From Flavobacterium sp. 9R (lineage in GTDB: Bacteria; Bacteroidota; Bacteroidia; Flavobacteriales; Flavobacteriaceae): DNA of 64,000 bases. The position numbers and the translations under genes were made by a program. Positions 4,692 through 58,191 of the stretch are shown piece after piece. The stretch spans positions 2,915,974 through 2,979,973 of the forward strand of contig NZ_LR733413.1 in NCBI RefSeq assembly GCF_902506345.1, read 5' to 3'. The number at the start of each line of letters is the position of its first letter. The first letter of the stretch is position 1. The notes beneath the pieces are model-generated. The model did no database searches, was not told the DNA's origin, and was given only the letters and a program-made list of their open reading frames with translations.

Positions 4692-4768
4692 GGAGCTATT
4701 TCCTGCTGTACGCTATATCTGTGGCTCCGAACCCCGGAGCCACAGGATGCCGCTTCCATCAGGGCTAG
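4692..4768 (-). ncRNA. dispersed structured element, copy 1 (between hmgA and hpd)
   Basis: One of four intergenic copies in this window of an ~80-bp element. On the plus strand it begins GGAGCTATTTCC and ends CAGGGCTAG; these flanks are nearly identical to copy 2 at 40032. The middle is a perfect 10-bp inverted repeat (4719-4728 with 4736-4745, CTGTGGCTCC/GGAGCCACAG) whose sequence is unrelated to the other copies. In the probable sense direction (minus strand) CCTG near the 5' end can pair with CAGG near the 3' end. Strand is inferred from wobble and G-A mismatches in copies 3 and 4. It may be the Rfam Flavo-1 RNA, but this is from memory and was not checked. Confidence 0.6.
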
Positions 4769-4822
4769 ACTTTCAACTAATCAACAACATTTTCGGAATC
4801 ACCGAAACAAATAATATATACA

Positions 4823-5983
4823 ATGGCAAAAGAAGTACAATCAGTAGAATACGGACTAGAGAAAATATTTGAAGGAGCACAAGATTTCCTTCCATTAATG
4901 GGAACTGATTACGTAGAATTTTATGTGGGTAACGCTAAACAAGCGGCTCATTTTTATAAAACAGCTTTCGGATTTCAATCGCACGCGTATTGCGGTTTAG
5001 AAACAGGCTCAAGGGACAAAGTTTCTTATGTGCTAAAACAAGACAAAATCCGTTTGGTGTTGACTACCGCTCTTACTAGTGAATCCCCAATTGGTGAACA
5101 CGTAAAAAAACACGGCGATGGGGTAAAAATCGTGGCGCTTTGGGTAGAAGATGCTCGTAAATCTTTTGAAGAAACCACCAAGCGTGGCGCAAAAGTATAT
5201 ATGGAACCTACCGTAGAAAAAGACGAATTTGGAGAAGTAGTTCGCGCTGGAATTTATACTTATGGCGAAACCGTACATATGTTTGTAGAGCGTAAAAACT
5301 ACACAGGTGCTTTTCTTCCAGGATTTGTAGAATGGAAATCGGACTACAACCCAACTTCTGTTGGTTTAAAGTACATAGACCATATGGTAGGAAATGTGGG
5401 GTGGAACCAAATGAATGTTTGGGTAAAATGGTACGAAGACGTTATGGGATTTGTGAATTTCCTTTCTTTTGATGACAAACAAATCCATACCGAGTATTCT
5501 GCTTTGATGAGTAAAGTAATGAGTAATGGTAACGGAAGAATTAAATTCCCAATCAACGAACCAGCGAAAGGAAACAAGCGTTCACAAATTGAAGAATATT
5601 TAGATTTTTATGAAGGAGCAGGCGTGCAGCACATTGCCATTGCTACCGATGATATTATTACTACTGTTACTGAGCTTAGAGCTCGTGGTGTAGAATTTTT
5701 GTCAGCGCCACCTCATGCCTATTACCAAGCCATTCCAGAACGTTTGGGTGAGCATATGAGTATGATGAAAGAGGATTTAGCCGTTATCGAAAAGTTAGCC
5801 ATCATGGTCGATGCTGATGAAGATGGGTATTTATTACAAATCTTTACCAAGCCAGTTGAGGACCGTCCTACCTTGTTTTTTGAGATTATTCAGCGAATGG
5901 GAGCCAAAGGATTTGGTGCAGGTAATTTCAAAGCTTTATTCGAATCTATTGAAAGAGAGCAAAAATTGCGAGGAACGTTGTAA
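4823..5983 (+). CDS. hpd: 4-hydroxyphenylpyruvate dioxygenase
   Basis: Converts 4-hydroxyphenylpyruvate to homogentisate, the step before hmgA in tyrosine degradation. The 386-residue protein has the two vicinal-oxygen-chelate domains of the family (about 27-160 and 180-345). The iron triad is visible as His187 (YIDHMVGN), His270 (GVQHIAIATDD) and Glu354 (LFFEIIQRMG), and the C-terminal GFGAGNFKALF segment that closes over the active site is intact. Cytoplasmic. It follows hmgA on the same strand after a 150-bp gap holding repeat copy 1. No terminator is evident directly after the stop. Confidence 0.95.
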   Translation: MAKEVQSVEYGLEKIFEGAQDFLPLMGTDYVEFYVGNAKQAAHFYKTAFGFQSHAYCGLETGSRDKVSYVLKQDKIRLVLTTALTSESPIGEHVKKHGDGVKIVALWVEDARKSFEETTKRGAKVYMEPTVEKDEFGEVVRAGIYTYGETVHMFVERKNYTGAFLPGFVEWKSDYNPTSVGLKYIDHMVGNVGWNQMNVWVKWYEDVMGFVNFLSFDDKQIHTEYSALMSKVMSNGNGRIKFPINEPAKGNKRSQIEEYLDFYEGAGVQHIAIATDDIITTVTELRARGVEFLSAPPHAYYQAIPERLGEHMSMMKEDLAVIEKLAIMVDADEDGYLLQIFTKPVEDRPTLFFEIIQRMGAKGFGAGNFKALFESIEREQKLRGTL

Positions 5984-6106
5984 AATTAAGTTTTTTTTGC
6001 ATTATCAAAAAAAATAACTAAACCAAAAGCTAATTTTTTGCAAATGTTGTGTTAAACTCAATTTTTACGCAAAAAAATATGGATTTGTGTTTTACCTTTG
6101 TACTCA

Positions 6107-6217
6107 CAAATGAAAGGGGTGGTTTCCTTTCATGGGTATTATAAATTTCATAATTTATAGTTTTTTGGTTAGTTAATAGCATAAAAACTCAGTCATTAAT
6201 TTGACTGGGTTTTTTTG
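6107..6217 (+). ncRNA. candidate ~110-nt small RNA with three hairpins and its own terminator
   Basis: A stand-alone transcription unit is suggested by a good -7 element TACCTTTG at 6093-6100 and a Rho-independent terminator at its other end. Three stem-loops follow in order: ATGAAAGG 6110-6117 with CCTTTCAT 6126-6133; TATAAATT 6140-6147 with AATTTATA 6152-6159 around a TCAT loop; and AACTCAGTCA 6186-6195 with TGACTGGGTT 6202-6211 (one G-U pair) followed by a T run. There is no reading frame of note. No convincing -33 TTG is seen at the expected distance. It lies between hpd and the DUF3108 gene. It could instead be a long structured leader attenuating the downstream gene. Function unknown. 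Confidence 0.5.
6186..6216 (+). terminator. Rho-independent terminator upstream of the DUF3108 gene
   Basis: Ten-pair stem (6186-6195 with 6202-6211, one G-U) with a 6-nt loop and a run of seven T. It ends the candidate small RNA and lies 62 bp before the start of the DUF3108 gene. Confidence 0.75.
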
Positions 6218-6278
6218 TTTTAATACATTTGGAATCATTTTTGCCAAAAGAATCTCTAAAAAGCTCAAATTTTACATA

Positions 6279-7052
6279 ATGAGAAAATTAATACTCCTCT
6301 TTTTGTTGGCCTTAACAGTTAGCTTTGATTCTCAGGACACTTCAGCATTCGATGCTGGTGAATGGTTTAAATTCCGAATACATTATGGTTTTGTAAATGC
6401 AGGTTATGCTACATTAGAAGTAAAAGATGCAGTCATCAATCAAAAATCCGTTTACCATGTTATAGGTAAGGGATACACTACCGGAATGTCTCGTTTCTTT
6501 TTCAAAGTGGATGATTTATACGAAAGTTATTTCGATAAAGAAACCGGTTATCCTTATCAATTTGTTCGAAAAATAGACGAAGGCGGTTATACCAAAAATC
6601 AAGAAGGTTTTTTTAATCAAGCTACCAATAAAGTGTTAGTCAAAGATTATAAACACAAAAACGAAAAAACATTTTCATTTCCCAAGGGCACACAAGACAT
6701 TGTTTCTACTTTTTATTATCTTAGAAATTACCCCACAATCGACAAATTAAAAGTGGGGGAATCTGTTGCGATTGATATGTTTTTTGACAATGAAACTACA
6801 AAGTTTAAGTTAAAATTCTTAGGTCGTGAAGATATTACAACTAAATTTGGCGTGATTTCAGCAATGATATTTCGCCCTTTAGTGCAATCTGGCCGTGTTT
6901 TTAAAGAGAAAGAGAGTTTAACGGTTTGGATTTCAAATGATCAAAATAAAATTCCTTTACGAATCAAAGCAGAACTAGCAGTTGGGTCTATCAAAGCTGA
7001 TTTGGATGCCTACAAAGGATTAAAGCATCCCTTTAAAATAAAAGCAAAATAG
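6279..7052 (+). CDS. DUF3108 domain-containing exported protein
   Basis: A 257-residue protein with a signal peptide (MRKLILLFLLALTVSF) followed by a DUF3108-type domain (FDAGEWFKFRIHYGFVNAGYA, then YESYFDKETGYPYQFVRKI). The longer open frame begins at a TTG at 6201 inside a terminator hairpin, so the ATG at 6279, which begins a clean signal peptide, is chosen. DUF3108 proteins are predicted periplasmic or outer-membrane-associated beta-rich proteins; no biochemical role is established. The stop codon is one base from the start of kynA, so the two are probably translationally coupled or at least co-transcribed. It is often found beside tryptophan dioxygenase and an M23 peptidase in flavobacteria (recollection, not checked). 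Confidence 0.8.
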   Translation: MRKLILLFLLALTVSFDSQDTSAFDAGEWFKFRIHYGFVNAGYATLEVKDAVINQKSVYHVIGKGYTTGMSRFFFKVDDLYESYFDKETGYPYQFVRKIDEGGYTKNQEGFFNQATNKVLVKDYKHKNEKTFSFPKGTQDIVSTFYYLRNYPTIDKLKVGESVAIDMFFDNETTKFKLKFLGREDITTKFGVISAMIFRPLVQSGRVFKEKESLTVWISNDQNKIPLRIKAELAVGSIKADLDAYKGLKHPFKIKAK

Positions 7053-7053
7053 A

Positions 7054-7989
7054 ATGAATCTTAAAGATAATACCTCTTCATTATTAGAACAACTCGATCA
7101 AAAATTTAAAGCAATAGATCAAAAAACAACCACTCATTTGGAAGGTCTTTTGTGGTCTAAACCCATTACCTATTGGGATTATATTCAAACGGATGCATTG
7201 TTGAATCTGCAAACCCAGCGCACGACTTTACCTGACGAAATGGTTTTTATTATGTACCATCAGGTCAATGAATTGTTGTTCAAAATGATTCTTTGGGAAA
7301 TGCAACAAATCTCTTATTGTGAACAGATAGAAACCTCTTTTTTTACGGAGAGATTAATGAGAATTAGTCGTTATTTCACTATGCTGACAACTTCATTCGA
7401 TATTATGGGTGACGGAATGGAAGTAGAGCAGTACATGAAATTTAGAAATACGTTGACACCAGCTAGTGGTTTTCAAAGCGCCCAATACCGAATGATTGAA
7501 TTTGCATCAACAGATCTAATTAATTTAATCGACGCGAGATTTCGTGCTACTATTGATCGTAATACTCCTTATGAACATGCTTTCGAACATTTATATTGGC
7601 AAGCGGCTGGAAAAGATCATAAAACAGGCGAGAAATCCTATCTATTACAAGAGTTTGAGCGTAAATATAAGTCTTCTTTCCTTACTCAAATGAAGGAGTA
7701 CAATACCATCAATCTTTGGCAGAAATTCAAACAATTGCCAGATGAAGCTCAGCAAGATCCTGCTTTAATCAAGGCTATGAGAGAGTATGATTATACGGTA
7801 AATGTTACTTGGGTAATGCAACATTTAAATACAGCCAAAAAGTATATTGAGTCCAGTGGATTCGGAGATGGAGAAGCTACAGGTGGAAGTGATTGGAAAA
7901 AATACATGCATCCAAAGTATCAAAGACGTATATTTTTTCCTGAATTATGGAGCACAGAGGAATTAGCCAATTGGGGAGTTGAATTATAA
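7054..7989 (+). CDS. kynA: tryptophan 2,3-dioxygenase
   Basis: Haem enzyme that opens the indole ring of L-tryptophan to N-formylkynurenine, the first step of the kynurenine pathway. The 311-residue protein has the family's helical core: FIMYHQVNELLFKMILWEM near residues 65-85, and SGFQSAQYRMIEF near 140, where substrate- and haem-contacting residues lie. The C-terminal segment GGSDWKKYMHP is the conserved loop GGxxG/S-type that binds substrate carboxylate. Cytoplasmic. Start ATG is one base after the DUF3108 stop. With hpd and hmgA nearby, the strain can use aromatic amino acids. No other kynurenine genes are in the window. Confidence 0.93.
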   Translation: MNLKDNTSSLLEQLDQKFKAIDQKTTTHLEGLLWSKPITYWDYIQTDALLNLQTQRTTLPDEMVFIMYHQVNELLFKMILWEMQQISYCEQIETSFFTERLMRISRYFTMLTTSFDIMGDGMEVEQYMKFRNTLTPASGFQSAQYRMIEFASTDLINLIDARFRATIDRNTPYEHAFEHLYWQAAGKDHKTGEKSYLLQEFERKYKSSFLTQMKEYNTINLWQKFKQLPDEAQQDPALIKAMREYDYTVNVTWVMQHLNTAKKYIESSGFGDGEATGGSDWKKYMHPKYQRRIFFPELWSTEELANWGVEL

Positions 7990-8086
7990 TTGTATATTTA
8001 AAACGTAGAAGTTTCTTTGATTTTATAAAAGCCAATCATATTGCCTTGATTAAAGAATTAAAATAATAGAATAAAAAAGTAGTATA

Positions 8087-9307
8087 TTGAAACGTTTCGC
8101 AATCCTTTTATTATGTTCTCTAGTTTTTTTCTCATGTACGAAAAAAGATGAGGTTTGGAGTGAAGTCAAAACAAAACCTATTTCTAAAAAGAAAGAGTTT
8201 GGCTTTACTTATTCTGATTTTAATGTTGTGCATGATACTTTAAAGAGTGGAGATACTTTTGGTAGCATTATTCAGAAACAAAATATTGGTGACAAAAAAG
8301 TATTTGAATTAGTAGAACAAATCAAAGATTCATTTGATGTAAGATCCATTCGAAACAATAAGCCTTACACACTTTTACGTTCAAAAAACAAGACGAAAGA
8401 ATTGCTTGTTTTCGTCTACCAACCCGATGCTCTTCATTATTATGTAGTAGATTTTAGAGATTCAATAACAAAAGCCTACAAAAAAACAAAACCAATTACA
8501 ATCAAAAGAAGAACCATTGGTGGTGTGCTGAAAAGTTCTCTTTCTGAAACCCTTGAGAGTGCCAACGTTGAAGGTGGCTTGGCTAGCAGAATTGCAAAAA
8601 TTTATGCTTGGTCTATTGATTTTTTCAAGTTAAAAAGAGGAGATCGTTTTGCAATTACATTTACCGAACGGTATATCAACGACTCTATTTATGATGGCGT
8701 AGATAGTTTAGAAGCTTCTTTTTTTGAATATAAGGGCAAAATTATTTATGCTTTTCCGTTTGTGGCCAATCCTTCATCAAACAGAATTGAATATTATGAT
8801 GAAGAAGGAAAAGGCTTGAAAAATTTCTTTTTGAAAACACCTATTAAGTTTAGCCGTCTATCTTCGCGTTTTTCTGCAAGTCGTTTTCATCCTGTTCAAC
8901 TTACTTGGAAAGCGCACAAAGGTACGGATTATGCAGCGCCACACGGTACACCTATAACGACAACTGCTTCAGGAGTTGTAGAACAAACAGGTTATACCGC
9001 TGGGAATGGTAATTTTGTAAAAGTGAAGCATAATGGTACTTACTCCACTCAATATTTACACATGTCTAGAATTCTAGTGCGAAGAGGACAACGCGTAACT
9101 CAAGGTCAACCTATTGGTCTTGTAGGAAGTACAGGATTAGCGACAGGACCACACGTGTGTTATCGCTTTTGGAAAAACGGTGTGCAAGTAGATCCCCTGC
9201 GTTTGAAGTTGCCTAATGGTGAACCTTTGACCGGAGCAACCAAAGAACGTTTTTTCAAACAAATAACGCCTTTAAAATTTGAATTGGATAGTATTGCCAA
9301 TTTATAA
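8087..9307 (+). CDS. M23-family peptidase, predicted lipoprotein
   Basis: A 406-residue cell-envelope peptidase. It begins with a lipoprotein signal (MKRFAILLLCSLVFFSC, lipidated Cys17), has an OapA/LysM-like N-terminal part (LKSGDTFGSII about 52-62) and a C-terminal M23/LytM domain (about 270-370). Zinc-ligand motif HxxxD is His277/Asp281 (HKGTD) and His325 is the third conserved His of the fold. The usual HxH motif is HVC (His356, Cys358), so a Cys replaces the normal His. The start is TTG at 8087; no ATG fits the signal peptide. Likely job: cleavage of peptidoglycan cross-links, as in MepM/EnvC relatives. It lies 97 bp after kynA and upstream of pgi. Confidence 0.85.
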   Translation: MKRFAILLLCSLVFFSCTKKDEVWSEVKTKPISKKKEFGFTYSDFNVVHDTLKSGDTFGSIIQKQNIGDKKVFELVEQIKDSFDVRSIRNNKPYTLLRSKNKTKELLVFVYQPDALHYYVVDFRDSITKAYKKTKPITIKRRTIGGVLKSSLSETLESANVEGGLASRIAKIYAWSIDFFKLKRGDRFAITFTERYINDSIYDGVDSLEASFFEYKGKIIYAFPFVANPSSNRIEYYDEEGKGLKNFFLKTPIKFSRLSSRFSASRFHPVQLTWKAHKGTDYAAPHGTPITTTASGVVEQTGYTAGNGNFVKVKHNGTYSTQYLHMSRILVRRGQRVTQGQPIGLVGSTGLATGPHVCYRFWKNGVQVDPLRLKLPNGEPLTGATKERFFKQITPLKFELDSIANL

Positions 9308-9391
9308 ACGACCTTCATTTTTTATTATAACGTTTTCGTAGATTGTTGTTTGTTTAAACTAGGTATAACCATCAATTTAAAGTTAATTGCT

Positions 9392-9399
9392 TAATTTTG
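9392..9399 (+). promoter_or_regulatory. -7 promoter element of pgi
   Basis: TAATTTTG matches the Bacteroidota -7 consensus TAnnTTTG and lies 31 bp before the pgi ATG. A -33 TTG at the expected distance is not evident. Confidence 0.45.
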
Positions 9400-9430
9400 C
9401 ATCTATTAAAAATGCATTAAATTTAAGCAC

Positions 9431-11080
9431 ATGGCCTTACATACAATCAATCCAACGCAGACTAAAGCTTGGGAAAAATTACAAAATCATTTTGCTGCAT
9501 TGCAATCAGTTACGATGCAGGAGTTGTTTCTGAAAGACACTAATAGAGCAGAGCAATTCAATATTATTTGGAACGACTTTTTATTAGATTATTCCAAAAA
9601 TAATATAGATAAAGAGACTATTCAGTTATTAGTAGAATTGGCTAATGAATGTGGTTTACAATCGGCTATTTCGGATTATTTTGAAGGAGCTTTAATCAAT
9701 CAAACAGAAAATCGTGCCGTTTTGCACACGGCACTGAGAGCCAAATCAGACGCAGTTATAAATGTAGAGGGAGTAAATGTTATCCCTGAAGTCTATGAGG
9801 TAAAAGCCAAAATTAAAACGTTTACGAACGAGGTGGTTTCAGGAATCCGTAAAGGATACACTGGTAAAACTTTTACCGATGTTGTAAATATTGGTATTGG
9901 AGGTTCAGATTTAGGACCAGTAATGGCAGTTGAAGCCTTACAATTCTATAAAAATCATTTGAACGTTCATTTCGTATCCAATGTTGATGGAGATCACGCG
10001 AATGAGATTATCAAAAAATTAAAGCCAGAGACAACATTATTTGTGATTGTTTCTAAAACCTTTACTACACAAGAAACGTTGACGAATTCTGAAACCATTA
10101 GAAAGTGGTTTTTACAATCGGCTACACAAGAAGATGTTGCTAAACATTTTGTAGCGGTTTCTACCAATATGCAAAAAGTTACCGAATTTGGAATCAATCC
10201 TGATAATGTATTCCCAATGTGGGATTGGGTTGGAGGAAGATTTTCCTTATGGAGTGCCGTAGGATTGTCTATTAGCTTGGCAGTTGGTTACGACAATTAT
10301 GAAGCTTTATTAGGTGGAGCCAATGAAATGGACGAACATTTTAAAACCACTACTTTTGAAAATAACATTCCTGTTGTTTTAGGTTTGTTGAGTGTTTGGT
10401 ATAATAATTTCTTTGGTGCTGAAAGCGAAGCCTTGATTCCATATACTCAATATTTACAAAAATTAGCACCTTACTTGCAGCAAGGAACGATGGAAAGTAA
10501 TGGTAAAAGTATAGGTCGTGACGGAAAGCCAGTTGATTACCAAACGGGAACAATAATTTGGGGAGAGCCTGGTACCAACGCACAACATGCTTTTTTTCAA
10601 TTAATTCACCAAGGTACAAAATTGATTCCTACTGATTTTATTGGTTATGTGGAGCCATTGTACGGAGATTGGAATCATCATGATAAATTGATGTCAAATT
10701 TCTTTGCTCAAACTGAGGCCTTGTTGCATGGTAAAACTCCAGCTCAGGTACAAGCGGAATTCGATAAGCAAGGACTTGCTCCAGAAAAAGCAGCATATCT
10801 TTTGCCTTTTAAAGTATTCACTGGAAACAAACCTACCAATACCATTTTGATTCAAAAACTTACCCCTAAATCTCTTGGGTCATTGATTGCAATGTATGAG
10901 CACAAGATTTTTGTTCAAGGAGTTATTTGGAACATTTTTAGTTTTGACCAATGGGGCGTTGAATTAGGGAAGCAATTAGCGAATTCTATTTTAGAAGAAA
11001 TTGAAACGGAATCGGTTAAAAATCATGATAGTTCTACAGCATTTTTATTGAACCATTTTCTTAAAAATAAGAGAAAGTAA
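9431..11080 (+). CDS. pgi: glucose-6-phosphate isomerase
   Basis: Interconverts glucose 6-phosphate and fructose 6-phosphate in glycolysis and gluconeogenesis. At 549 residues it is the long, E. coli/eukaryote-type enzyme. Signatures visible: [18 protein letters not shown], the phosphate-binding [25 protein letters not shown], catalytic Glu in GTMESNGKS, the His of [10 protein letters not shown], and the C-terminal lysine segment [13 protein letters not shown]. All catalytic positions look intact. A -7 element sits 31 bp upstream and a strong terminator follows at 11103, so it is probably a single-gene unit. Confidence 0.97.
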
Positions 11081-11102
11081 TGCTAAAAATTGTGTTAAGA
11101 AG

Positions 11103-11137
11103 AAACCTCGAATAATAACCTATTTGAGGTTTTTTTT
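11103..11137 (+). terminator. Rho-independent terminator after pgi
   Basis: AAACCTCGAAT (11103-11113) pairs with ATTTGAGGTTT (11122-11132) with one G-U pair, followed by eight T. Confidence 0.85.
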
Positions 11138-11389
11138 ATAGGTTGTTATTGTTATGGACAAAAGATTGACGCCTTAATTTAGGTGCCGAATCAAAGAATA
11201 ATGTTTCAAAAAACACATAATTTCAAAAATACTATGCATTCATAACAATTTTTCATTTTTTTAACATAAAACCATTTAATGTGCTAATTGTTTATAAATG
11301 AAGGCTTAGTCGATTCTTATTAACATTAAATTAACATAAGATTGTCTTAAAAGTTAGAATTTTGCCAAGAATTAATAAACTAAACAACA
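11138..11389 (+). other. intergenic region before the TonB-dependent receptor
   Basis: AT-rich 250-bp stretch with no reading frame of note. It must hold the promoter of the receptor gene, but no unambiguous TAnnTTTG box was found; TTAGAATTTTG around 11355-11364 is the nearest. No repeat or further hairpin was recognised. Confidence 0.4.
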
Positions 11390-14176
11390 ATGAAGATAAT
11401 TAAAAATTGGTTACTCACTGGAATGGTGTTTTTTATGGTATCAATGGCTTTCTCACAAGGGAAAATAACAGGTACTATAACTGATGGACAAAGTTCGTTG
11501 CCTGGCGCAAATGTTATTATCAAAGGAACCTCCAAAGGAGTAGCTGTTGATTTTGATGGAAAGTTCACACTTTCTACAACAACAAGTTCAGGAGAAATAG
11601 TAATTTCTTTTCTAGGCTTTGATACAAAAACGGTAAAATTTTCAGTTTCTAAAGGTGAAACTCAAGATCTAGGAGATATTGTTTTGGTATCAAATTCAAA
11701 TGAATTACAAGAAATTGTAGTTAAGTCAAGTGTTATTGACGTAGCTAAAGACAGAAAAACACCTGTAGCAGTTTCAACAATCAAAGCTGCAGAAATTCAA
11801 GAAAAATTGGGTACACAAGAATTCCCAGAAATCTTAGCAAACACTCCTTCTGTTTATGCTACAAAATCCGGTGGTGGTTTTGGTGATGCCAGAATTAATA
11901 TACGTGGGTTTTCTCAAGAGAATATTGCGGTAATGGTTAATGGTATGCCAGTTAACGATATGGAGAATAGCCGTGTATTTTGGAGTAACTGGGCTGGTTT
12001 GTCTGATGTAACTTCAGCTATGCAAGTACAAAGAGGTTTGGGTTCATCTAAATTAGCAATTTCTTCAGTAGGTGGTACTATAAACGTTCTTACAAGAACT
12101 GCTGATATGAAAGAAGGCGGTACTATTTTGACGGGTTTTGGTAATGCAAATTATATTAAAACAAATGCATCTTATTCAACAGGTAAGATGGAAAATGGTT
12201 TATCCGCTTCTGTTTTGTTAGGACAAACTTTAGGTGATGGTTATGTTGATGGTACAAAATTTCAAGGGTATAATTATTTTGTAGGACTTGGTTATACTAC
12301 AGCTGATGATAAGCATAGTTTTCAATTTACATTTACTGGTGCTCCTCAGTGGCATAACCAAAGATCTAATGCTCCAACAATTGCAACTTACAGAAAGTAT
12401 GGTGCTAATAATGAACCAGACATCAGATACAATTCTGATTGGGGATATTTAGATGGTGAAGAGTATAGTTTTAGAACTAATTATTACCACAAGCCAGTTA
12501 TGTCATTAAATTGGGATTACAATATTAATGATAAAATGAAATTGTCTAGTGTAGTTTATGGCTCATGGGGTCGTGGTGGTGGAACTAATGGAGCTGGAGC
12601 GATTAGAGGAAATCGTTTTTTTGCTGATCCTTTGAAAACACCTAATGGTTTAATTAATGTTGATTTAATTCGTAATTATAACTCTGGTATGCCGGTAGTA
12701 ATTAATAATGTTTCTTATACCAGAGCAAAAATCAATGGCCTTTATGAAAGTAGTAGCTCTACTTCAAACAATTCGACAAATGGTATTTCGCAAATTGCTT
12801 CTGTAAACTCTCATAACTGGTATGGTACAGTAGTTAATTTAAACACAAAATTAACTGACAACTTAGTTTTGGATTTTGGTGTTGATGCTAGAACTTATAG
12901 AGGTATTCATTATCAAACTTTAGTTGACTTACTTGGTTCTGATACTTATAATGCAAATTATTCTGCAACTGGAGCTACAAGCAATGATATAAATAATAAG
13001 ATTCGTTCTATTACTCAGACTTCAAATGCAAGACCACATGGTAATCCGTTTTTTAATTCAGATCATCAAAATAAAATCAATTACAATAATGATGGTTTAG
13101 TAAGATGGTATGGAGCCTTTACTCAATTAGAATATCGTAAGGATAACTTAACTGCTTTTTTTCAAGGAGCAATTTCTCAACAAGGTTTTAAAAGAGAAGA
13201 TTATTTTAAATATCTTACAAGTGATCCTTTAAGTTCAACTGATTATGAAAATATTCTTGGTGGAAACGTAAAAGGTGGTGTAAATTACAATATTAATGAT
13301 AATCATAATGTGTTTGTAAATGCTGGTTATTATTCTAAACAACCATTTTTTAATGCAGTTTACCCTAACAATGCATCATTGGTTGGTGAGAACCTTACAA
13401 ATGAAAAAATTACTGGTTTAGAAGCTGGTTATGGTTTTAGGTCAGCTATTTTTAATGCTACATTGAATTTGTATTATACATCATGGAAAGATAGATACCA
13501 AAGAGCAACGGATAATGCTACCGATAATCCAGGTGGATACTATGACTTTTCTGGTATCACAGAGGTGCACTCAGGTGTTGAGCTTGAAGCTAATGCTAGG
13601 GTTACCAATAAATTTAAAGTTAATGGAATGGTTTCTGTTGGTAATTGGGTTTATGATGGTAATAGTAAAAGTAATAGATATGACTTTGAAAACAATCCTA
13701 TAAGTGGTGGTACTGCAACTACATTATATTTGGATAAAGTAAAAGTTGGTGATGCTGCTCAATTAACTGCTTCTATTGGTGCTTCTTATGAAGTTTTGGA
13801 AAGAGTTATTTTGGATGCTAATTACAGATATTCTGATCATTTGTATGCTTCTATTGATCCAGGTAGATTTACTTCAGCTACAAATAAGGGTACTTTAGAG
13901 TTACCTTCATACGGATTAATGGATGCTGGTTTTTCTTACAAAATGTTAGTTGGTAAAAATAAAGACAGATCTTTAAACTTCAGATTAAACGTTAATAATG
14001 TTTTAGATAAAATCTACATTGCGGAGTCAAGAACAAATATTTTTGCGGATGATATTGCTTCTGGAGGACAAACGTACGAGCAACTAGGAAGAACATACAA
14101 TGGAATAGCAGATGGTAACCAAGTATTCTTTGGTTTCGGAAGAACATGGAACTTTACCTTGCGTTATAATTTCTAA
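11390..14176 (+). CDS. TonB-dependent receptor with CarboxypepD_reg-like N-terminal domain
   Basis: A 928-residue outer-membrane active transporter. After a signal peptide (about 1-22, ending MAFSQ) comes a carboxypeptidase-regulatory-like beta-sandwich (about 25-105, GKITGTITDGQSSLPGANV), then the plug domain (about 120-235; INIRGFSQENIAVMVNGMPV, and the TonB-type VQRGLGSSKLAISSVGGTINV) and a 22-strand-type barrel ending in phenylalanine (FTLRYNF). No SusD-like partner follows, so this is not a canonical SusCD glycan uptake pair; siderophore or other small-ligand uptake is possible but not shown. It is flanked by terminators on both sides and thus probably monocistronic. Confidence 0.92.
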   Translation: MKIIKNWLLTGMVFFMVSMAFSQGKITGTITDGQSSLPGANVIIKGTSKGVAVDFDGKFTLSTTTSSGEIVISFLGFDTKTVKFSVSKGETQDLGDIVLVSNSNELQEIVVKSSVIDVAKDRKTPVAVSTIKAAEIQEKLGTQEFPEILANTPSVYATKSGGGFGDARINIRGFSQENIAVMVNGMPVNDMENSRVFWSNWAGLSDVTSAMQVQRGLGSSKLAISSVGGTINVLTRTADMKEGGTILTGFGNANYIKTNASYSTGKMENGLSASVLLGQTLGDGYVDGTKFQGYNYFVGLGYTTADDKHSFQFTFTGAPQWHNQRSNAPTIATYRKYGANNEPDIRYNSDWGYLDGEEYSFRTNYYHKPVMSLNWDYNINDKMKLSSVVYGSWGRGGGTNGAGAIRGNRFFADPLKTPNGLINVDLIRNYNSGMPVVINNVSYTRAKINGLYESSSSTSNNSTNGISQIASVNSHNWYGTVVNLNTKLTDNLVLDFGVDARTYRGIHYQTLVDLLGSDTYNANYSATGATSNDINNKIRSITQTSNARPHGNPFFNSDHQNKINYNNDGLVRWYGAFTQLEYRKDNLTAFFQGAISQQGFKREDYFKYLTSDPLSSTDYENILGGNVKGGVNYNINDNHNVFVNAGYYSKQPFFNAVYPNNASLVGENLTNEKITGLEAGYGFRSAIFNATLNLYYTSWKDRYQRATDNATDNPGGYYDFSGITEVHSGVELEANARVTNKFKVNGMVSVGNWVYDGNSKSNRYDFENNPISGGTATTLYLDKVKVGDAAQLTASIGASYEVLERVILDANYRYSDHLYASIDPGRFTSATNKGTLELPSYGLMDAGFSYKMLVGKNKDRSLNFRLNVNNVLDKIYIAESRTNIFADDIASGGQTYEQLGRTYNGIADGNQVFFGFGRTWNFTLRYNF

Positions 14177-14195
14177 TAGTTAGTTTTTAATATTT

Positions 14196-14234
14196 AAAAC
14201 GGCATTCACTTTTGGTGTAATGCCGTTTTTTTTT
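14196..14234 (+). terminator. terminator after the TonB-dependent receptor
   Basis: AAAACGGCATT (14196-14206) pairs with AATGCCGTTTT (14219-14229); CAC/GTG extends the stem inside. A run of nine T follows. Confidence 0.9.
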
Positions 14235-14277
14235 ACCCCATTTTTTCATATATTTGAAATTCTAAAACAGATATTAT

Positions 14278-14700
14278 ATGTACGAATTTATACAAAAATT
14301 TCACTCTGGTTGGGCCTATTTAGTTTTGTTAATTTTAGTAGTAGCAGTAGTTAATGCACTACTTGGTTCATCTTCCAAAAAAGAGTTTACCGCAAAAGAT
14401 CGAAAAATAGCCTTGTTTGCTCTAATCTTTACTCATATTCAGTTAGTTATCGGTTTAATAATCTATTTTGTCTCGCCATTAGGGTTGGTTTCATTCGGGC
14501 AGATGTCAGACAAAGCCCTTCGTTTGACTTCATTAGAGCATCCTTTAATCAATATCATAGCAATTGTTTTGATTACTATCGGTTGGTCAAAACATAAAAA
14601 ACTAACGGATGCTACTGCTCAATTTAAAACATTTGCTGTTTTTTATGGTATAGGATTACTTCTTATTTTGAGCAGAATCCCTTGGTCTCTGTGGCTTTAA
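14278..14700 (+). CDS. small four-helix membrane protein, haem-protein-like
   Basis: A 140-residue integral membrane protein with four predicted helices (about 13-33, 43-65, 87-106, 115-137). Three helices begin with or contain a histidine: HSGWAYLVLLILV (His10), ALIFTHIQLVIGLII (His53) and LEHPLINIIAIVLI (about His88). Such helix-embedded histidines could coordinate haem, and homologues are sometimes annotated as cytochrome b-like in flavobacteria, but I cannot confirm that here. It is separated from the receptor by a terminator. The RlpA-like gene follows after 61 bp on the same strand. No specific function is assigned. Confidence 0.65.
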   Translation: MYEFIQKFHSGWAYLVLLILVVAVVNALLGSSSKKEFTAKDRKIALFALIFTHIQLVIGLIIYFVSPLGLVSFGQMSDKALRLTSLEHPLINIIAIVLITIGWSKHKKLTDATAQFKTFAVFYGIGLLLILSRIPWSLWL

Positions 14701-14761
14701 TTTTTAAAGCAACTGTGTGTTATCAGTTGTTTTAATGTAGTATTAATTTAAAATAAACTAA

Positions 14762-15247
14762 ATGAAAAAATTATTAGCCATACTTTTTTTATTTGTTATC
14801 ATTGGGATAGTATATAGTCAGGGACCTTCTTTAATTAAAGAAAAGGTGACTAGTTCCAAAGACACAATAAAAAAAGAGAAGACCAATCTTTTGCCTCAGA
14901 CATTGATACAAGACACGATCTTTGATCCTAATGTAAAATATGTTTTGTATAAAAAAAATGCACATGCGTCCTATTATGCTGAAAAATTTCATGGTCGTAG
15001 AACTGCAAGTGGACAACGATTTGATATGCATAAAATGACAGCAGCCCACAAGAAATTACCATTTGGCTCTAAGATTAGAGTAACTAATGAAAGTAATGGT
15101 AAATCAGTTATTGTTGAAGTTAATGATAGAGGTCCTTTTGTTAAATCACGAGAAATTGATTTATCTAAAAAAGCTTTTATGGCCATCGCTTCATCAAAAG
15201 CTGCAGGTTCAATGAAAGTTACGATTGAAACTATTGTAAAAAAATAA
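14762..15247 (+). CDS. RlpA-like double-psi beta-barrel (septal ring/lytic transglycosylase family) protein
   Basis: A 161-residue exported protein: signal peptide ([19 protein letters not shown]), a Ser/Lys-rich linker, then an RlpA-type double-psi beta-barrel (about 65-160). The family pattern is clear: [20 protein letters not shown], then [18 protein letters not shown] and VEVNDRGPF, with the Asp of NDRGPF matching the residue regarded as catalytic in lytic transglycosylase RlpA. It lacks a SPOR domain, so it is a minimal form. Likely acts on glycan strands of peptidoglycan. A strong terminator follows. Confidence 0.87.
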
Positions 15248-15302
15248 GGAATCTTCATTAATGTTTTAATAGAGATTTATGATGATTCAACATCAGATTC
15301 AG

Positions 15303-15334
15303 AAAAGCCTAGGATTTCAAATTCTAGGCTTTTT
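15303..15334 (+). terminator. terminator after the RlpA-like gene
   Basis: AAAAGCCTAG (15303-15312) pairs with CTAGGCTTTT (15324-15333), and the stem continues inward with one G-U pair; T run follows. Confidence 0.88.
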
Positions 15335-15360
15335 GTTTTTGGTAAAGTTGTTTAATTTTG
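15333..15360 (+). promoter_or_regulatory. candidate dinB promoter
   Basis: TTG at 15333-15335, 17-bp spacer, TAATTTTG at 15353-15360, 22 bp before the ATG of dinB. The -33 box overlaps the T run of the preceding terminator. No SOS-type operator was recognised. Confidence 0.45.
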
Positions 15361-15382
15361 TTGATAATGAATATATTTGAGG

Positions 15383-16465
15383 ATGGATACTAGCAATTTT
15401 CAACGAAAAATTATTCACATTGATATGGATGCTTTTTATGCATCTGTAGAGCAAATGGATAATCCTTTATTGAAAGGTAAGCCTATTGCTGTTGGAGGTA
15501 ACGAAAATAGAGGTGTTGTGTCTGCGGCTAGTTACGAAGCAAGGAAGTTTGGAGTTCGAAGCGCTTTGAGTGGTGTGTTAGCCAAAAAGTATTGTCCCGA
15601 TTTGATTTTTGTGCGACCACGATTTGATCGTTATAAAGAGATTTCAAAACAAATTCAAAAAATATTTTATGAATATACAGACCTTGTTGAGCCACTTTCC
15701 TTGGATGAAGCTTATTTAGATGTTACCCATAATAAAAAAGGGAATCCAAGTGCTACTTTATTGGCTAAAGAAATTAGAGCACGGATTTTGTCTGAAGTTG
15801 GTCTCACTGCTTCTGCAGGGATTTCTGTAAACAAGTTTATCGCAAAAGTAGCCAGTGATTACAACAAACCTAATGGTCAAAAGACGGTAAGTGGCGATGA
15901 AATTGTTCCTTTTTTAGAAAATCTACCCATTCAAAAATTTTATGGTGTTGGTAAAGTTACAGCTGACAAAATGTTTCAATTGGGTATTTTTTCTGGATTA
16001 GATTTAAAGAATAAATCTTTGGAATATTTAGAAAACCAGTTTGGCAAGTCAGGAAGTTATTATTACAATGTAGTAAGAGGTATTCATAATAGCCTTGTTC
16101 AACCAAAACGCATAACAAAATCTGTAGCAGCTGAACACACTTTTGATGTTAATTTGTCTTCTGAAATTTTTATGCTCGAACAATTAGAGTCCATTTCAGC
16201 TCAAGTTGAAAAGAGATTGCTAAAACATTCCATTTCAGGGAAAACCATTACTTTGAAAATAAAGTATAGCGATTTTTCTCAGCAAACTAGGAGTAAAACA
16301 ATGCCTTATTTTATTTCTGATAAGAGCTTGATTTTTGAAATAGTTAAAGAATTATTGTATCAAGAGCGGCTTAAAGATTCAGTTCGTTTACTTGGAATTG
16401 CTCTGAGTAATTTAAATACAGATCAAAAGAAAACAGTAGTGATACAGCTACAATTTGATTTTTGA
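15383..16465 (+). CDS. dinB: DNA polymerase IV (Y-family translesion polymerase)
   Basis: Error-prone polymerase for bypass of damaged template. A 360-residue protein with the palm motifs IIHIDMDAFYASVE (Asp14) and SLDEAYLD (Asp108, Glu109) that hold the two metal ions, the helix-hairpin-helix thumb (FYGVGKVTADKM) and the little-finger domain. The extreme C-terminus, QLQFDF, resembles the beta-clamp binding motif expected for Pol IV. The open frame could start at a TTG at 15377, but the ATG six bases later is preferred. Flanked by its own promoter and followed by the PAS gene after 90 bp. Confidence 0.95.
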   Translation: MDTSNFQRKIIHIDMDAFYASVEQMDNPLLKGKPIAVGGNENRGVVSAASYEARKFGVRSALSGVLAKKYCPDLIFVRPRFDRYKEISKQIQKIFYEYTDLVEPLSLDEAYLDVTHNKKGNPSATLLAKEIRARILSEVGLTASAGISVNKFIAKVASDYNKPNGQKTVSGDEIVPFLENLPIQKFYGVGKVTADKMFQLGIFSGLDLKNKSLEYLENQFGKSGSYYYNVVRGIHNSLVQPKRITKSVAAEHTFDVNLSSEIFMLEQLESISAQVEKRLLKHSISGKTITLKIKYSDFSQQTRSKTMPYFISDKSLIFEIVKELLYQERLKDSVRLLGIALSNLNTDQKKTVVIQLQFDF

Positions 16466-16508
16466 TTTTAGAAGTGCCTTCAACAACAGTTAAATCCTAG
16501 AAAATGTG

Positions 16509-16538
16509 TTTGTACTTTTTAAAAATCAGGTACATTTG
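16509..16538 (+). promoter_or_regulatory. promoter of the PAS-domain gene
   Basis: TTTG (16509-16512), 18-bp spacer, TACATTTG (16531-16538): a full match to the Bacteroidota sigma-A pattern, ending 20 bp before the ATG at 16559. Confidence 0.65.
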
Positions 16539-16558
16539 ATAAATTAAAACTATTAGTG

Positions 16559-17074
16559 ATGGTCTGGATAAATGATTATGAAAATGCTAAGGCTAAGTAC
16601 TTTGGTACTTTGTGTGTAAAAACGACTTCGTTGGTTTCGATGAGTTTTCACAAAGAATTTTTAGGAAATGTGATGAAGTCCTTTGATGACTATAATCGAT
16701 TGAATTATATTTTATCTAGTAGTACATCTCAAATGGATGAGATAAGTTTAAGGGATTTTCTATTAGAAGATGTAGTGATTTTAACTGATAGTAATTTAAA
16801 AATTGTTTTTGCTTCTAATAATTTATCTAGAATGAATGGTTATTTAGAAAAGGAAGTGCTAGGTAAAAGTCCTAAAATCTTTCAAGGCTTAAAAACAAAC
16901 GCGGTTACTTCTAGAGAAATTCGTGAAAAAATTAATCAAGAATTACCTTTTGAAAAAAAAGTCATTAACTATAAAAAAAATGGTAAAACTTATGATTGTC
17001 TAATTAAAGGTTATCCCATAAAAAGCAAAAAAGGGAAGCTAACACATTTTATAGCTTTCGAAAAAGCATTATAA
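16559..17074 (+). CDS. single PAS-domain protein
   Basis: A 171-residue cytoplasmic protein. The C-terminal half (about 70-171) is a PAS sensor fold: VVILTDSNLKIVFASNNLSRMNGY, then EVLGKSPKIFQG, KTNAVTSREI and a final beta-strand pair with KNGKTYDCLIKGYPI. The GKxPxxxQG-like segment resembles that of LOV-type PAS domains, but the photoactive Cys (NCRFLQ) is absent, so it should not be a flavin photoreceptor. The N-terminal ~65 residues are not recognised. No kinase, cyclase or DNA-binding domain is attached, so it must signal through a partner. GTG at 16556 is an alternative start. It has its own promoter and a bidirectional terminator. Confidence 0.8.
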   Translation: MVWINDYENAKAKYFGTLCVKTTSLVSMSFHKEFLGNVMKSFDDYNRLNYILSSSTSQMDEISLRDFLLEDVVILTDSNLKIVFASNNLSRMNGYLEKEVLGKSPKIFQGLKTNAVTSREIREKINQELPFEKKVINYKKNGKTYDCLIKGYPIKSKKGKLTHFIAFEKAL

Positions 17075-17075
17075 G

Positions 17076-17107
17076 AAAAGGGCAGTTCAATTTGAACTGC
17101 CCTTTTT
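17076..17107. terminator. bidirectional terminator between the PAS gene and the BI-1 gene
   Basis: Perfect 13-bp stem AAAAGGGCAGTTC (17076-17088) with GAACTGCCCTTTT (17094-17106), with T and A runs on both sides; it serves two convergent genes. Confidence 0.9.
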
Positions 17108-17111
17108 ATTT

Positions 17112-17882
17112 TTAGTCTTTGCTAGATAGTTTTGATAACAATCGTAAAAATTCAATATAAAGCCATACTAGGGTTATGATTAAGCCCATAGCTCCGTACC
17201 ATTCCATGTATTTTGGCATTCTTTGATTTACTCCTTGTTCGATTCTGTCAAAGTCTAAAAACAAATTCAACGCGGCAATGATAATAACAAAAGCACTTAT
17301 ACCAATACTCATTAATGAGTTGTCATAATGTACAGGTGTATAGCTTGTAAACATTGAAAAAATCCAAGAAATTAAGTAGTAAGTTGCTATCGCTAATGTA
17401 GCAGCTATTACAACTGATTTAAATTGTTCAGTTACTTTGACAATTTTGTATTTGTATAGACCAAAACAAACCAAAAAAGTAACAAAAGTTGCACCTACTG
17501 CTTGTAAAACAATTCCAGGGTATTTAGCTTCGAAAATGGCTGAGATTGCTCCAATAAATAATCCTTCAAAAACGGCGTAGCCTGGAGCAAGATAAGGAGA
17601 AAGTTGTGGTTTGAAAGCCGCAATCACTACTAGTATAAGTCCAATTATTGCGCCACCAATTGCTGGTAGAATTGGGTTCATTCCATTAAAAGCCATCCAC
17701 CAAGTGATAGATGCTGCAGCAGTTAGAAGTAAAAATAAGACCATACTTTTGTTTATGGTTCCTGATAAGGTCATCTCGGAAGCAAAGTCAATAATTGTTG
17801 CCTCGTGTACTTCGTTTGAGTTTCCTTGATTTTTAAATGTTTTGTTGTTTAAAAACGGGTTATTCGAATTATTGAAAGCCAT
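17112..17882 (-). CDS. Bax inhibitor-1/YccA family membrane protein
   Basis: A 256-residue integral membrane protein with about seven hydrophobic helices, beginning after a ~45-residue polar N-terminus rich in Asn (MAFNNSNNPFLNN). The stretch LFIGAISAIFEAKYPGIVLQAV and the late NLFLDFDRIEQGVNQRMPKYMEWYGA segment are typical of the large YccA-like bacterial subfamily. Bacterial BI-1 proteins are proposed pH-sensitive calcium leak channels or protease modulators; the role here is not known. It ends 5 bp from a bidirectional terminator, and pyk lies 135 bp upstream on the same strand behind its own terminator. Confidence 0.88.
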   Translation of the reverse strand: MAFNNSNNPFLNNKTFKNQGNSNEVHEATIIDFASEMTLSGTINKSMVLFLLLTAAASITWWMAFNGMNPILPAIGGAIIGLILVVIAAFKPQLSPYLAPGYAVFEGLFIGAISAIFEAKYPGIVLQAVGATFVTFLVCFGLYKYKIVKVTEQFKSVVIAATLAIATYYLISWIFSMFTSYTPVHYDNSLMSIGISAFVIIIAALNLFLDFDRIEQGVNQRMPKYMEWYGAMGLIITLVWLYIEFLRLLSKLSSKD

Positions 17883-17967
17883 AAGTTTTGTTTTATAGTT
17901 ATGGAATGAAAATTAATTATGGTTAAAGATATAAATACTCCTGATTATTTTGAAATAAAATGTAAAT

Positions 17968-17996
17968 AAAAACGCTCCAAAAAAATGGAGCGTTTT
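17968..17996 (-). terminator. terminator after pyk
   Basis: CGCTCC (17973-17978) pairs with GGAGCG (17987-17992), extended by A/T pairs on both sides; on the minus strand a U run follows the stem, just after the pyk stop. Confidence 0.8.
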
Positions 17997-18016
17997 GTAA
18001 TTCGATACGTTAAGAA

Positions 18017-19447: not shown

Positions 19448-19452
19448 TGGTA

Positions 19453-39946: not shown

Positions 39947-40387
39947 ACTGCAAAAATACTACTTTTAAGCTTTATTCGAACAAATTTTCAACGGAACAAT
40001 CCTGATTCTAAAATATTCCGATTGGTAATCAGGAGCTATTTCCTGCTGTACGCTATATCTTTGCTGCCTCGTCCCAAAAGACGAGGCAGCAAAGGACGCC
40101 GCTTCCATCAGGGCTAGGGTTTAGGATAATCGAGAAGTTTTATTTATTGTTCGATTTTTCAACCGTTTGGTGAAATTCAAATAAAATAAAAAAAATAACC
40201 ACATAGAACAATAGATTACAGTTTATGAAAAAGAATAAATAGAAATAGTTCTATTTCACACATATTATACTATGTGAATAGTAAAACGTCTATCTTTTCT
40301 TTTACGAATAATAAATTCTATGTTTCTCCCTATGTGGTAAAAAAAAATTCACTAAAGGGTCATAAAAGTTTACAAACAATCACAACT
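39947..40387. other. intergenic region between rbfA and addA-like gene
   Basis: A 441-bp divergent gap. It holds copy 2 of the structured element (40032-40117). The rest is AT-rich with no gene recognised; an open frame from GTG at 40274 is in frame with the AddA-like gene but lacks the conserved start and is taken as non-coding leader. No standard promoter was identified. Confidence 0.4.
40032..40117 (-). ncRNA. dispersed structured element, copy 2 (between rbfA and addA)
   Basis: Flanks are nearly identical to copy 1: the left 29 bp match exactly and the right 24 bp differ at one position. The core is a different 15-bp perfect inverted repeat (40059-40073 with 40080-40094; CTTTGCTGCCTCGTC and its complement) around CCAAAA. 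In the proposed sense direction (minus) it lies 86 bp upstream of rbfA and would be in its leader if co-transcribed. Confidence 0.6.
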
Positions 40388-46406: not shown

Positions 46407-46417
46407 ATATTTATAAA

Positions 46418-51233: not shown

Positions 51234-51319
51234 ACAGCTCATATCTTGTTACTTTCAAAAATATTTTTCTAGAATTTTTGAGTTCAAAATGTAACCTAAT
51301 AAAGCTAAATGTTGGTTTT

Positions 51320-51398
51320 TAGCCCCGATAGTAGCGAAAATCCTCTAGTGCCGGGGTTCGGTACTAGAGATTGTAGCGGATAGCGGGACGGCGTTTCC
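51320..51398 (+). ncRNA. dispersed structured element, copy 3 (after abiH)
   Basis: Inverted relative to copies 1, 2 and 4. Begins TAGCCCCGATAG and ends GCGTTTCC. The core stem is 51343-51353 with 51359-51369 (CTCTAGTGCCG and CGGTACTAGAG) around GGGTT; the single imperfect pair is G-U on the plus strand and would be C-A on the minus strand. Outer CCCG can pair with CGGG where copies 1 and 2 have CCTG and CAGG, a compensated change. Confidence 0.6.
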
Positions 51399-51431
51399 AA
51401 AAAATCCCTATGCTTACTGCTCCTAAAAAAA

Positions 51432-56622: not shown

Positions 56623-56655
56623 TTCTTGGTACACATAGCGGAAGTCAAAAAAAAC

Positions 56656-56693
56656 AAAAGGCACGATTCCAAGTTGGTTTCGTGCCTTTTTTT
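56656..56693. terminator. bidirectional terminator between the sortilin gene and aceA
   Basis: AAAAGGCACGA (56656-56666) pairs with TCGTGCCTTTT (56680-56690), with A and T runs on both sides. Confidence 0.88.
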
Positions 56694-56730
56694 GGCAAAC
56701 ATCTTTAGCAATTAATCTTCTAAAATATTT

Positions 56731-58011
56731 TTAAAATTGTGCCACTTCTGTCGAATCTTTCATTGCGGTTGTAGAAGCTTTTCCGGTAGTAACCGTATTT
56801 TGAACGGCGTCAAAATAGCTCGTTCCCACAAAACCTTGGTGTTTTACGGCTCTAAAACCGTGTTGTTGCAAAGCAAATTCTCTTTCTTGTAATTCAGAGT
56901 AGCCCGCCATACCTCTTTCTTTGTAAGCTTTAGACAATTCAAACATACTCGTGTTCAAAGCGTGGAATCCAGCCAAAGTAATGAATTGGAATTTATACCC
57001 CATAGCCGCCAAGTCTTCTCTAAAGGTTTCCATTTCAGCAACTGATAGTTTCGCCGCCCAGTTGAACGAAGGCGAACAGTTGTAAGCCAACATTTTTCCT
57101 GGATATTTCGCGTGAATCGCATCGGCAAATTGTTTAGCGTAAGCCAAATCAGGATTACTCGTTTCCATCCAAATCAAGTCCGCATAAGGTGCATAACTCA
57201 ACCCACGGTCAATACCTTGCTCCACGCCACAGTTTACGTAAAAGAAACCTTCGTCTGTTTTTTCTCCCGTGATGAATTTGGCATCCCTTGGGTCGATATC
57301 GCTCGTCAATAAGTTCGCAGCATCTGCATCGGTTCTTGCTACAATCAGGGTTGGTGTTCCCATTACGTCGGCAGCCAAACGCGCAGCGATTAATTTATTG
57401 ATGGCTTCTTGCGTAGGAACCAAAACTTTTCCACCCAAGTGGCCACATTTTTTAGCAGAACTCAATTGGTCTTCAAAGTGTACACCCGCTGCACCTGATT
57501 CAATCATCGATTTCATCAATTCAAAAGCGTTCAAGTTTCCTCCAAAACCTGCTTCAGCATCGGCTACAATCGGAACTAAATAGTCTTTTTTATCTGCGGT
57601 TTTGTTCACCACTTGAATTTGGTCAGCACGCAACAAAGCGTTGTTGATTCTTTTTACAACCAACGGAACACTGTTGGCAGGATACAACGATTGGTCAGGA
57701 TACATTTCGCCTGCCACATTCGCATCAGCCGCCACTTGCCAGCCGCTCAAGTAAATCGCTTCTAGTCCAGCTTCCACTTCTTGAATGGCTTGATTACCAG
57801 TCAATGCGCCTAATCCGGCAACAAAATCCTGTGATTTCAATCTGTTCCAAAGTTTCGTAGCGCCCATTCTAGCGATACTGTGTTCAATTTGATACGAACC
57901 TTGCAATTGTACCACTTCTTCAGCGGTGTAAGGACGTTCGATGCCTTCCCATCTTGGGTTCGTTAACCAATCGGTTACTAATTCTTGAATGCGTGTCTCG
58001 GTGGTTTTCAT
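56731..58011 (-). CDS. aceA: isocitrate lyase
   Basis: First step of the glyoxylate bypass, cleaving isocitrate to succinate and glyoxylate. The 426-residue TIM-barrel protein has the catalytic signature [14 protein letters not shown] and the usual ICL blocks [35 protein letters not shown] and YNCSPSFNW. The length matches the short bacterial ICL class. It is downstream of aceB on the same strand; the gap of 360 bp holds a structured repeat copy and a heptad array, so co-transcription is likely but not proven. Confidence 0.97.
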
Positions 58012-58110
58012 AATTTTTGATTTAAGTTTTTTGGTTTTTTATTTTGGTTTGTTTTGATTTCAATAATTGAAAAAGGTATTTTCAGGAGCGGCAATCAAAG
58101 GGCTTTTTCA

Positions 58111-58191
58111 GGAAGTATGGTTCCCGCTCTCCGTTATATCTCTGTCCTCGCTCGTTCGCGAGTCCAGAGGATGCCACTGCTATCGGGGCTA
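58111..58191 (-). ncRNA. dispersed structured element, copy 4 (between aceB and aceA)
   Basis: Diverged copy of the element, same orientation as copies 1 and 2; the plus strand runs from GGAAGTATGGTTCCCGC to ATCGGGGCTA. In the sense direction (minus) the core is CTCTG, GA, CTCGC, loop GAACGA, GCGAG, GA, CAGAG: two five-pair stems flanking a tandem G-A mismatch, a stable RNA motif that on the opposite strand would be U-C mismatches. CCCG and CGGG pair in the outer stem. It lies in the aceB-to-aceA direction. Confidence 0.6.

Follow-up and report, generated by a model that had tools for sequence, protein, structure and literature searches.

Flavo-1 in Flavobacterium sp. 9R: conserved arms, an exchangeable hairpin core and a possible REP-like folded DNA strand

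Introduction

A stretch of 64,000 nucleotides from Flavobacterium sp. 9R (contig NZ_LR733413.1, positions 2,915,974 to 2,979,973; hereafter the window) carries four copies of a short element with conserved ends and unrelated, self-complementary cores. What is kept in such an element, and is it as RNA or as DNA that it folds? An earlier note on this DNA placed the copies at 4692-4768, 40032-40117, 51320-51398 and 58111-58191 and suggested that they might belong to the Rfam family Flavo-1. The four copies do lie at these positions, and all four match Flavo-1 (RF01705) in cmscan with 52.4-73.5 bits, the gathering score being 42 bits. Since its publication in 2010, Flavo-1 has been listed as an RNA whose function is not known. 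Here we describe it as a dispersed, mostly intergenic element, and judge the chances about even that it works as one DNA strand that folds and in this form is recognised by a protein, much like a repetitive extragenic palindromic (REP) sequence.

Results

The genome (G000) contained 146 Flavo-1 matches, 143 of them above the cut-off, and a further match of 37.1 bits; since 150 of 1,120 candidates were scored, this count is a lower bound. Among the 136 copies that parsed (the other 10 of the 146 are left out of the pairing count), a mean of 6.65 of the first seven core pairs was Watson-Crick. Exchange of core arms between copies gave a mean of 3.78 pairs and a maximum of 4.04 over 200 shuffles. 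The 136 copies hold 114 distinct cores. Thus, the core keeps structure and not sequence, as the earlier note had proposed, both within the genome and at the orthologous sites described below; random, non-complementary cores are not what the whole-genome search returned.

On the Rfam strand, the left arm of the window copies reads TAGCCCyGATNGnAGyGGCATCC or a near form, and the right arm reads GATATAGCGGAN'AGCrGG or a near form (Table 1). Copies 1 and 2 had been credited with 29 shared bases at one end; the sharing is real, at the right-arm end, and runs to 30 bases (aggagctatttcctgctgtacgctatatct). As had also been described, they agree at 23 of 24 bases at the opposite end, have unrelated cores, and possess an outer CCTG/CAGG stem which in copies 3 and 4 is CCCG/CGGG (all read from the sequence). 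A short linker and GCTCC usually follow the right arm in copies of classes a, b and c. The 17 copies of class d have other endings, and an insertion sequence (IS) interrupts each of the 10 copies of class e.

The RNA fold predicted for copies 1-3 consists of the outer CCyG/CrGG, a T-A pair, the pair N:N', two further pairs, ATC/GAT and the core. Copy 4 folds weakly, and its outer stem has no place in the predicted minimum. Against shuffled sequences, the z-scores of copies 1-4 were -3.39, -4.98, -2.46 and -2.38 for RNA folding and -4.50, -6.15, -2.41 and -1.79 for DNA folding. Across 168 distinct elements, the N:N' pair, which the search pattern left free, was AT in 73, GC in 58, CG in 17, TA in 12 and something else in 8. 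The two pairs that follow it, for which the pattern allowed a purine then a pyrimidine per side, were GC/GC in 78, GT/AC in 48, AC/GT in 19 and AT/AT in 4, with G·T in 19 and A·C in none. These pair counts show that the frame of Flavo-1 covaries.

Most copies are intergenic, at most 13 of the 146 matches overlapping an open reading frame (ORF) under crude gene calling. With respect to both neighbours, 38 were sense, 43 antisense, 31 convergent and 19 divergent (p = 0.66 and 0.12; two at contig edges), and no gene-orientation bias was found. C1 carries 63 copies on the plus and 76 on the minus strand, and a coarse table gave no evident replication-strand bias. Mismatches in the core stems, counted on the Rfam strand, were G·T in 30 cases versus A·C in 2 among distinct cores (p = 2.5e-7); copies antisense to both neighbours had 14 versus 0 (p = 1.2e-4). 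A wider set of 142 distinct cores, which contains most of the first and required four of the five outermost pairs, gave single in-stem mismatches of G-T 35, A-G 26, G-G 7, T-T 4, A-A 4, C-T 1 and A-C 1. The asymmetry lies on the element's own strand, and the elements are oriented without bias relative to genes and, on a coarse view, relative to replication; it is therefore that strand which folds. Read-through messenger RNA (mRNA) does not explain the excess of G·T over A·C. The folding strand is then single-stranded DNA (ssDNA) or an RNA that escaped detection, and DNA is favoured.

A structured RNA acting in trans or in cis, whether transcribed from a start of its own or by way of adjacent genes, is in our view doubtful. 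Rfam gives the family the type Gene; sRNA, and in the portion available of Weinberg et al. 2010 (PMC2864571) Flavo-1 is listed as RNA 'y', cis-regulatory 'n' and switch 'n'. G·T tolerance and RNA-folding z-scores of -2.4 to -5.0 fit an RNA, and several 5' transcribed regions of F. psychrophilum coincide with Flavo-1 matches; the same source, as far as its available text goes, has the matches sense or antisense indistinctly and many of them outside transcribed regions (PMC9723704). Here too the sense orientation is not favoured, and the G·T excess persists in copies antisense to both genes. TAnnTTTG, the one promoter motif tested, occurred within 60 nt upstream of 4 of 136 copies, versus 2 in a mirror and 7 in a far control, hence without enrichment, and the sequences that precede the arm in class b copies have hardly anything in common. 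The core arms are T-rich on the 5' and A-rich on the 3' side, the wrong orientation for an intrinsic terminator. Given the lack of orientation bias, the G·T excess in antisense copies and the lack of a promoter motif, a small RNA (sRNA) gene or mRNA signal is unlikely. Neither option of the earlier note, a structured RNA or a hairpin-recognised mobile element, is plainly favoured: orientation, G·T and promoter results speak against an sRNA gene or mRNA signal, and none of the compared sites gave a clean insertion junction.

Orthologous sites were compared in two relatives, G128 (94% hppD identity) and G231 (92%), each read in part (about a fifth of the genome). Both flanks were adjacent in a relative for 39 of the 146 copies, and 38 sites remained once an IS-split copy had been set aside. 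Under a strict rule (at least 16 of 22 left-arm and at least 18 of 24 right-arm bases), 29 sites were occupied and nine were not. Two of those nine (C1:480065 and C1:2355707) hold Flavo-1 by eye, bringing occupancy to 31 of 38; the remaining seven, which include the sites of window copy 2 (compared with G231) and window copy 1 (compared with G128), are without it in the relative. The 29 orthologous cores comprised 10 that were identical, 13 with point or loop changes and 6 that differed wholesale (five below 60% identity and one at 73%). In all six of the latter, the core of the relative pairs at 8 of 8 positions, G·T allowed; the genome's own cores pair at 8, 8, 8, 7, 5 and 8. The arms retain their paired states in four of these cases and carry compensated changes in two.

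Right arms at sites picked by the left arm alone were 95.7% identical versus 87.4% for the flanks (22 sites, p = 0.0017), and left arms at sites picked by the right arm alone were 96.7% identical versus 87.2% (21 sites, p = 8e-5). These figures replace an earlier comparison (94.7% versus 85.0%, 25 sites, p = 9e-5), the sites of which had been chosen by an arm-like pattern and included C1:2375540 and C1:480065, both failing the strict rule. Judged from these alignments, the frame is under selection, and the core apparently only has to be a hairpin. A borrowing of cores from another palindromic repeat was rejected: in 1.63 Mb of sequence there were two instances of the CCTGnCAGG double palindrome, each of them within a Flavo-1 frame.

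Window copy 1 lies antisense between two genes of the ORF listing which, by recognising the proteins, we take to be hmgA (3515-4672) and hppD (4823-5983). hmgA was upstream of hppD in 77 of 80 GTDB loci. A strict pattern placed Flavo-1 between the two genes in 23 of 110 loci (18 distinct sequences; the 110 include G000 itself and certain species twice), antisense to both genes in every case. Inspection by eye reveals Flavo-1 in no fewer than eight of the 87 loci without a strict-pattern match (L165, L198, L203, L211, L212, L214, L228 and L233). The 18 include a sequence from Bizionia (L243), and the one seen by eye in Tenacibaculum (L212) is a variant. The cores at this site vary widely among species. 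The same antisense orientation in 18 of 18 distinct sequences argues that Flavo-1 is mostly inherited here. When 15 of these 18 sequences were aligned with MAFFT, some rows had their core displaced by one column, and the alignment was not used for pair counts. At L177:3858-3958, the core contains a further palindrome, CACCCTGAGCGCAGTCGAAGGG on the hppD strand. In G128 (L395), an AT-rich element of about 200 bp with CAATGTCATTAAGTTAAG-like ends and their inverse replaces Flavo-1 at hmgA-hppD; an AT-rich element with such ends also adjoins Flavo-1 at two G231 sites.

Flavo-1 matches were found in 40 of 60 genomes, G000 included, with at most 65 candidates scored per genome and stricter filters than for G000; within the genus, G018 and G020 alone among 36 relatives had none. 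A sample of the phylum gave a match in 28 of 198 genomes (at most 22 candidates scored each). It is unlikely that Flavo-1 is a non-autonomous element mobile at present, moved by a hairpin-recognising enzyme and with its arms kept because only intact copies move. Such mobility would agree with copy numbers that, within the genus, are high in some species and 0-4 in others, with the seven sites lacking Flavo-1 in a relative, and with identical cores at different loci. Against it stand the 31 occupied sites (29 by rule, two by eye) and the constant orientation at hmgA-hppD; a precise empty site was not seen, and no Y1 transposase tracks the element. One left-arm pattern was searched for in viral contigs and had no exact hit, on which result carriage by phage was rejected, and a plasmid search using window bases 1-20000 gave no match.

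Two further accounts concern the cores. The capping hairpin might be a cassette, which an enzyme would cut and reclose in the frame of an ssDNA folding site, changing the core in one step with arms and address kept; we hold this decidedly unlikely. Highly improbable is a neutral relic whose copies are homogenised by gene conversion that also swaps cores: uniform arms and exchangeable cores suit it, but private arm states persist in four of the six wholesale differences, so that exchange would have to break within a few nucleotides to the left and to the right, a search of the sequence read (about one fifth of each genome) did not find the relatives' cores at any other place, and conversion by itself gives no G·T over A·C.

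The left arm is also a site of insertion. One IS110-like end splits the ten class e copies of G000 at TAGCCCC/GAT; all four visible left junctions read TAGCCCCGATTACTATG, the other six lying behind assembly gaps or contig ends, and 10 of 10 G000 matches to this end sit in a Flavo-1 left arm. A related element of G089, with an IS110 recombinase (PF01548, PF02371), is inserted in Flavo-1 with CCCTGAT. In the noncoding IS end, a hairpin loop (GCCCCGAT in G000, GCCCTGAT in G089) matches the respective target over 8 nt, and by this match it is a candidate guide of a bridge RNA. The recombinase of the IS110-like copies of G000 itself was not found in the assembly. The sole IS110 transposase there, G000:C1:699673 (L164), lies in a stretch without a Flavo-1-matching loop. 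At the ten split copies (e.g. G000:C1:373918), N is T in 5, C in 3, G in 2 and A in 0, although A is the commonest N among the 168 distinct elements (73).

In relatives, the left arm holds a 206-bp IS4-like element with ends CTACCGTCTGGACACA, for which 9 bp are duplicated exactly at L411 and nearly at L400. Eight insertions were read, chosen from matches that were mostly short, unread pieces: five lie in Flavo-1 by eye (three in G128, one of these with the left junction only, one in G323 and one end in G014), that of G231 is ambiguous, and those of G173 and G229 lie elsewhere. Three of the five are backed by cmscan, L400 with 45.5 bits and, below the cut-off, L439 with 41.4 and L411 with 33.6. 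In G014, the insertion carries a transposase in which PF14706 is present, a domain that marks Tn5/IS4-type transposases. Insertion sequences probably use Flavo-1 as a place to land outside genes. Neither core exchange nor IS targeting of Flavo-1 is described in the available portions of the papers that name it in the PMC library searched (PMC2864571, PMC9723704).

Some copies depart from the common form. A variant frame, with GAGCTC and AGCGGGAACG replacing ATCC and GAT, is listed with G000:C1:331818, 2526086 and 2146949. There are also class d copies in which the outer stem is flipped to GGG/CCC; several of these possess a second hairpin, with GCGTGA/TCACGC pairing outermost. In the class c flank the frames shift from copy to copy, and for this reason it was not read as coding.

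Table 1. Flavo-1 copies of the window and their parts, in window coordinates.
Feature	Position	Strand	Basis or remark
Flavo-1 copy 1	4695..4770	-	cmscan, 67 bits
Copy 1 left arm, TAGCCCTGATGGAAGCGGCATCC	4745..4767	-	read from sequence
Copy 1 variable core hairpin	4720..4744	-	read from sequence; folds in RNA prediction
Copy 1 right arm	4702..4719	-	read from sequence
Copy 1 GCTCC 3' end	4692..4696	-	common in classes a, b, c
Flavo-1 copy 2	40035..40119	-	cmscan, 69.3 bits
Copy 2 left arm	40094..40116	-	read from sequence
Copy 2 core hairpin	40060..40093	-	read from sequence; RNA fold
Copy 2 right arm	40042..40059	-	read from sequence
Copy 2 GCTCC 3' end	40032..40036	-	read from sequence
Flavo-1 copy 3	51317..51394	+	cmscan, 73.5 bits
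Copy 3 left arm	51320..51343	+	read from sequence
Copy 3 core hairpin, one G-T pair	51344..51368	+	read from sequence; stem mismatch count
Copy 3 right arm	51369..51387	+	read from sequence
Copy 3 GCTCC 3' end behind class-a linker	51419..51423	+	read from sequence
Flavo-1 copy 4	58116..58194	-	cmscan, 52.4 bits
Copy 4 left arm	58169..58191	-	read from sequence
Copy 4 imperfect core hairpin	58141..58168	-	read from sequence; RNA fold
Copy 4 right arm	58123..58140	-	read from sequence
Copy 4 GCTCC 3' end	58085..58089	-	read from sequence

Discussion

Two conserved arms frame a hairpin core which, we propose, is replaced wholesale at some sites. A protein would read the arms and internal loops, and would need the capping hairpin but no set core sequence. 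The folded strand would be DNA rather than RNA. Flavo-1 would have spread in the past and now be inherited mostly in place.

Several observations weigh against a protein-read DNA hairpin of the REP kind. An RNA would show G·T tolerance too, the frame is also what RNA energies predict for copies 1-3, and the F. psychrophilum transcripts that coincide with matches have been mentioned; A-G (26) and G-G (7) mismatches also sit in the stems of the 142 cores. At the compared sites, Flavo-1 itself showed neither a clean insertion junction nor a target duplication, and no protein partner was found. Most of 12 related IS110-like ends from eight other genomes lie outside Flavo-1: that of G089 is in Flavo-1 by cmscan, that of G128 borders a right arm by eye, and the other ten stretches contain no Flavo-1 over the cut-off. 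Three defining features of REPs are also wanting. The GT[AG]G or CGTC foot is absent, most copies starting TAGCC and ending GGGA or AGGA (by eye, uncounted). There are no head-head or tail-tail dimers, the nearest two of the 146 matches being 889 bp apart. Y1_Tnp (PF01797) is absent from G004, G011, G029 and G030 (99-100% complete), each with 41-65 matches among 65 scored, and Y1 transposases do not track Flavo-1 copy number in the genomes surveyed. Since these three features fail, Flavo-1 is filed as a variant that would work like a REP.

If Flavo-1 is a strand-specific DNA hairpin, more than 100 loci in this genome are mislabelled as small RNA genes. Wholesale core differences between fixed arms would offer a countable system for the renewal of palindromes. 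The presence of two dissimilar transposon families in one arm would be a natural example of landing directed by a repeat; one of the families is likely guided by RNA, the guide changing as the target varies.

How does Flavo-1 compare with known systems? Family, arms, hairpin and Bacteroidetes range agree with RF01705; beyond the 2010 description, the elements here are high-copy and orientation-free, differ wholesale in core at fixed sites, and hold insertion sequences in the left arm. The conserved ends framing a variable hairpin recall the attC site of integrons, by analogy only. Partnership with a REP-associated tyrosine transposase (RAYT) was rejected: no over-cut-off match lies within 1.5 kb on either side of the genome's two Y1 genes, and copy number is untracked. 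A 37.1-bit match lies 1.4 kb from the first of these genes. By motif the two genes resemble subclasses 1.2 and 2.1, unlike the subclass 2.6 TnpA-REP genes of Bacteroidetes, the atypical flanking hairpins of which come from the same phylum and, in the part of the source available, also lack GT[AG]G (PMC6006769); the Y1 genes here have no flanking over-cut-off Flavo-1.

The insertions have a precedent in IS621 and other IS110 elements, which enter REPs with a bridge RNA, as far as the available text goes (PMC11208160). The IS110 family and a guide-like loop matching the target are shared, the E. coli IS621 target ATCAGGCCTAC resembles ATCGGGGCTAA here, and PF01548 and PF02371 in the related element of G089 provide the DEDD recombinase trait of bridge-RNA IS110 elements. 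Unlike IS621, the target here is Flavo-1, and the bridge RNA is a candidate from the loop match alone.

The REP element is the closest known kind to Flavo-1. REPs and bacterial interspersed mosaic elements (BIMEs) with RAYTs share with it a high copy number, a mostly intergenic and palindromic nature, a lack of orientation bias and, according to the available part of the source, a susceptibility to insertion by elements of the IS110 and IS4 families (PMC1525189). Unlike them, Flavo-1 has no GT[AG]G foot, dimers or tracking Y1 transposase; it is longer, and combines internal loops with a core that is not conserved.

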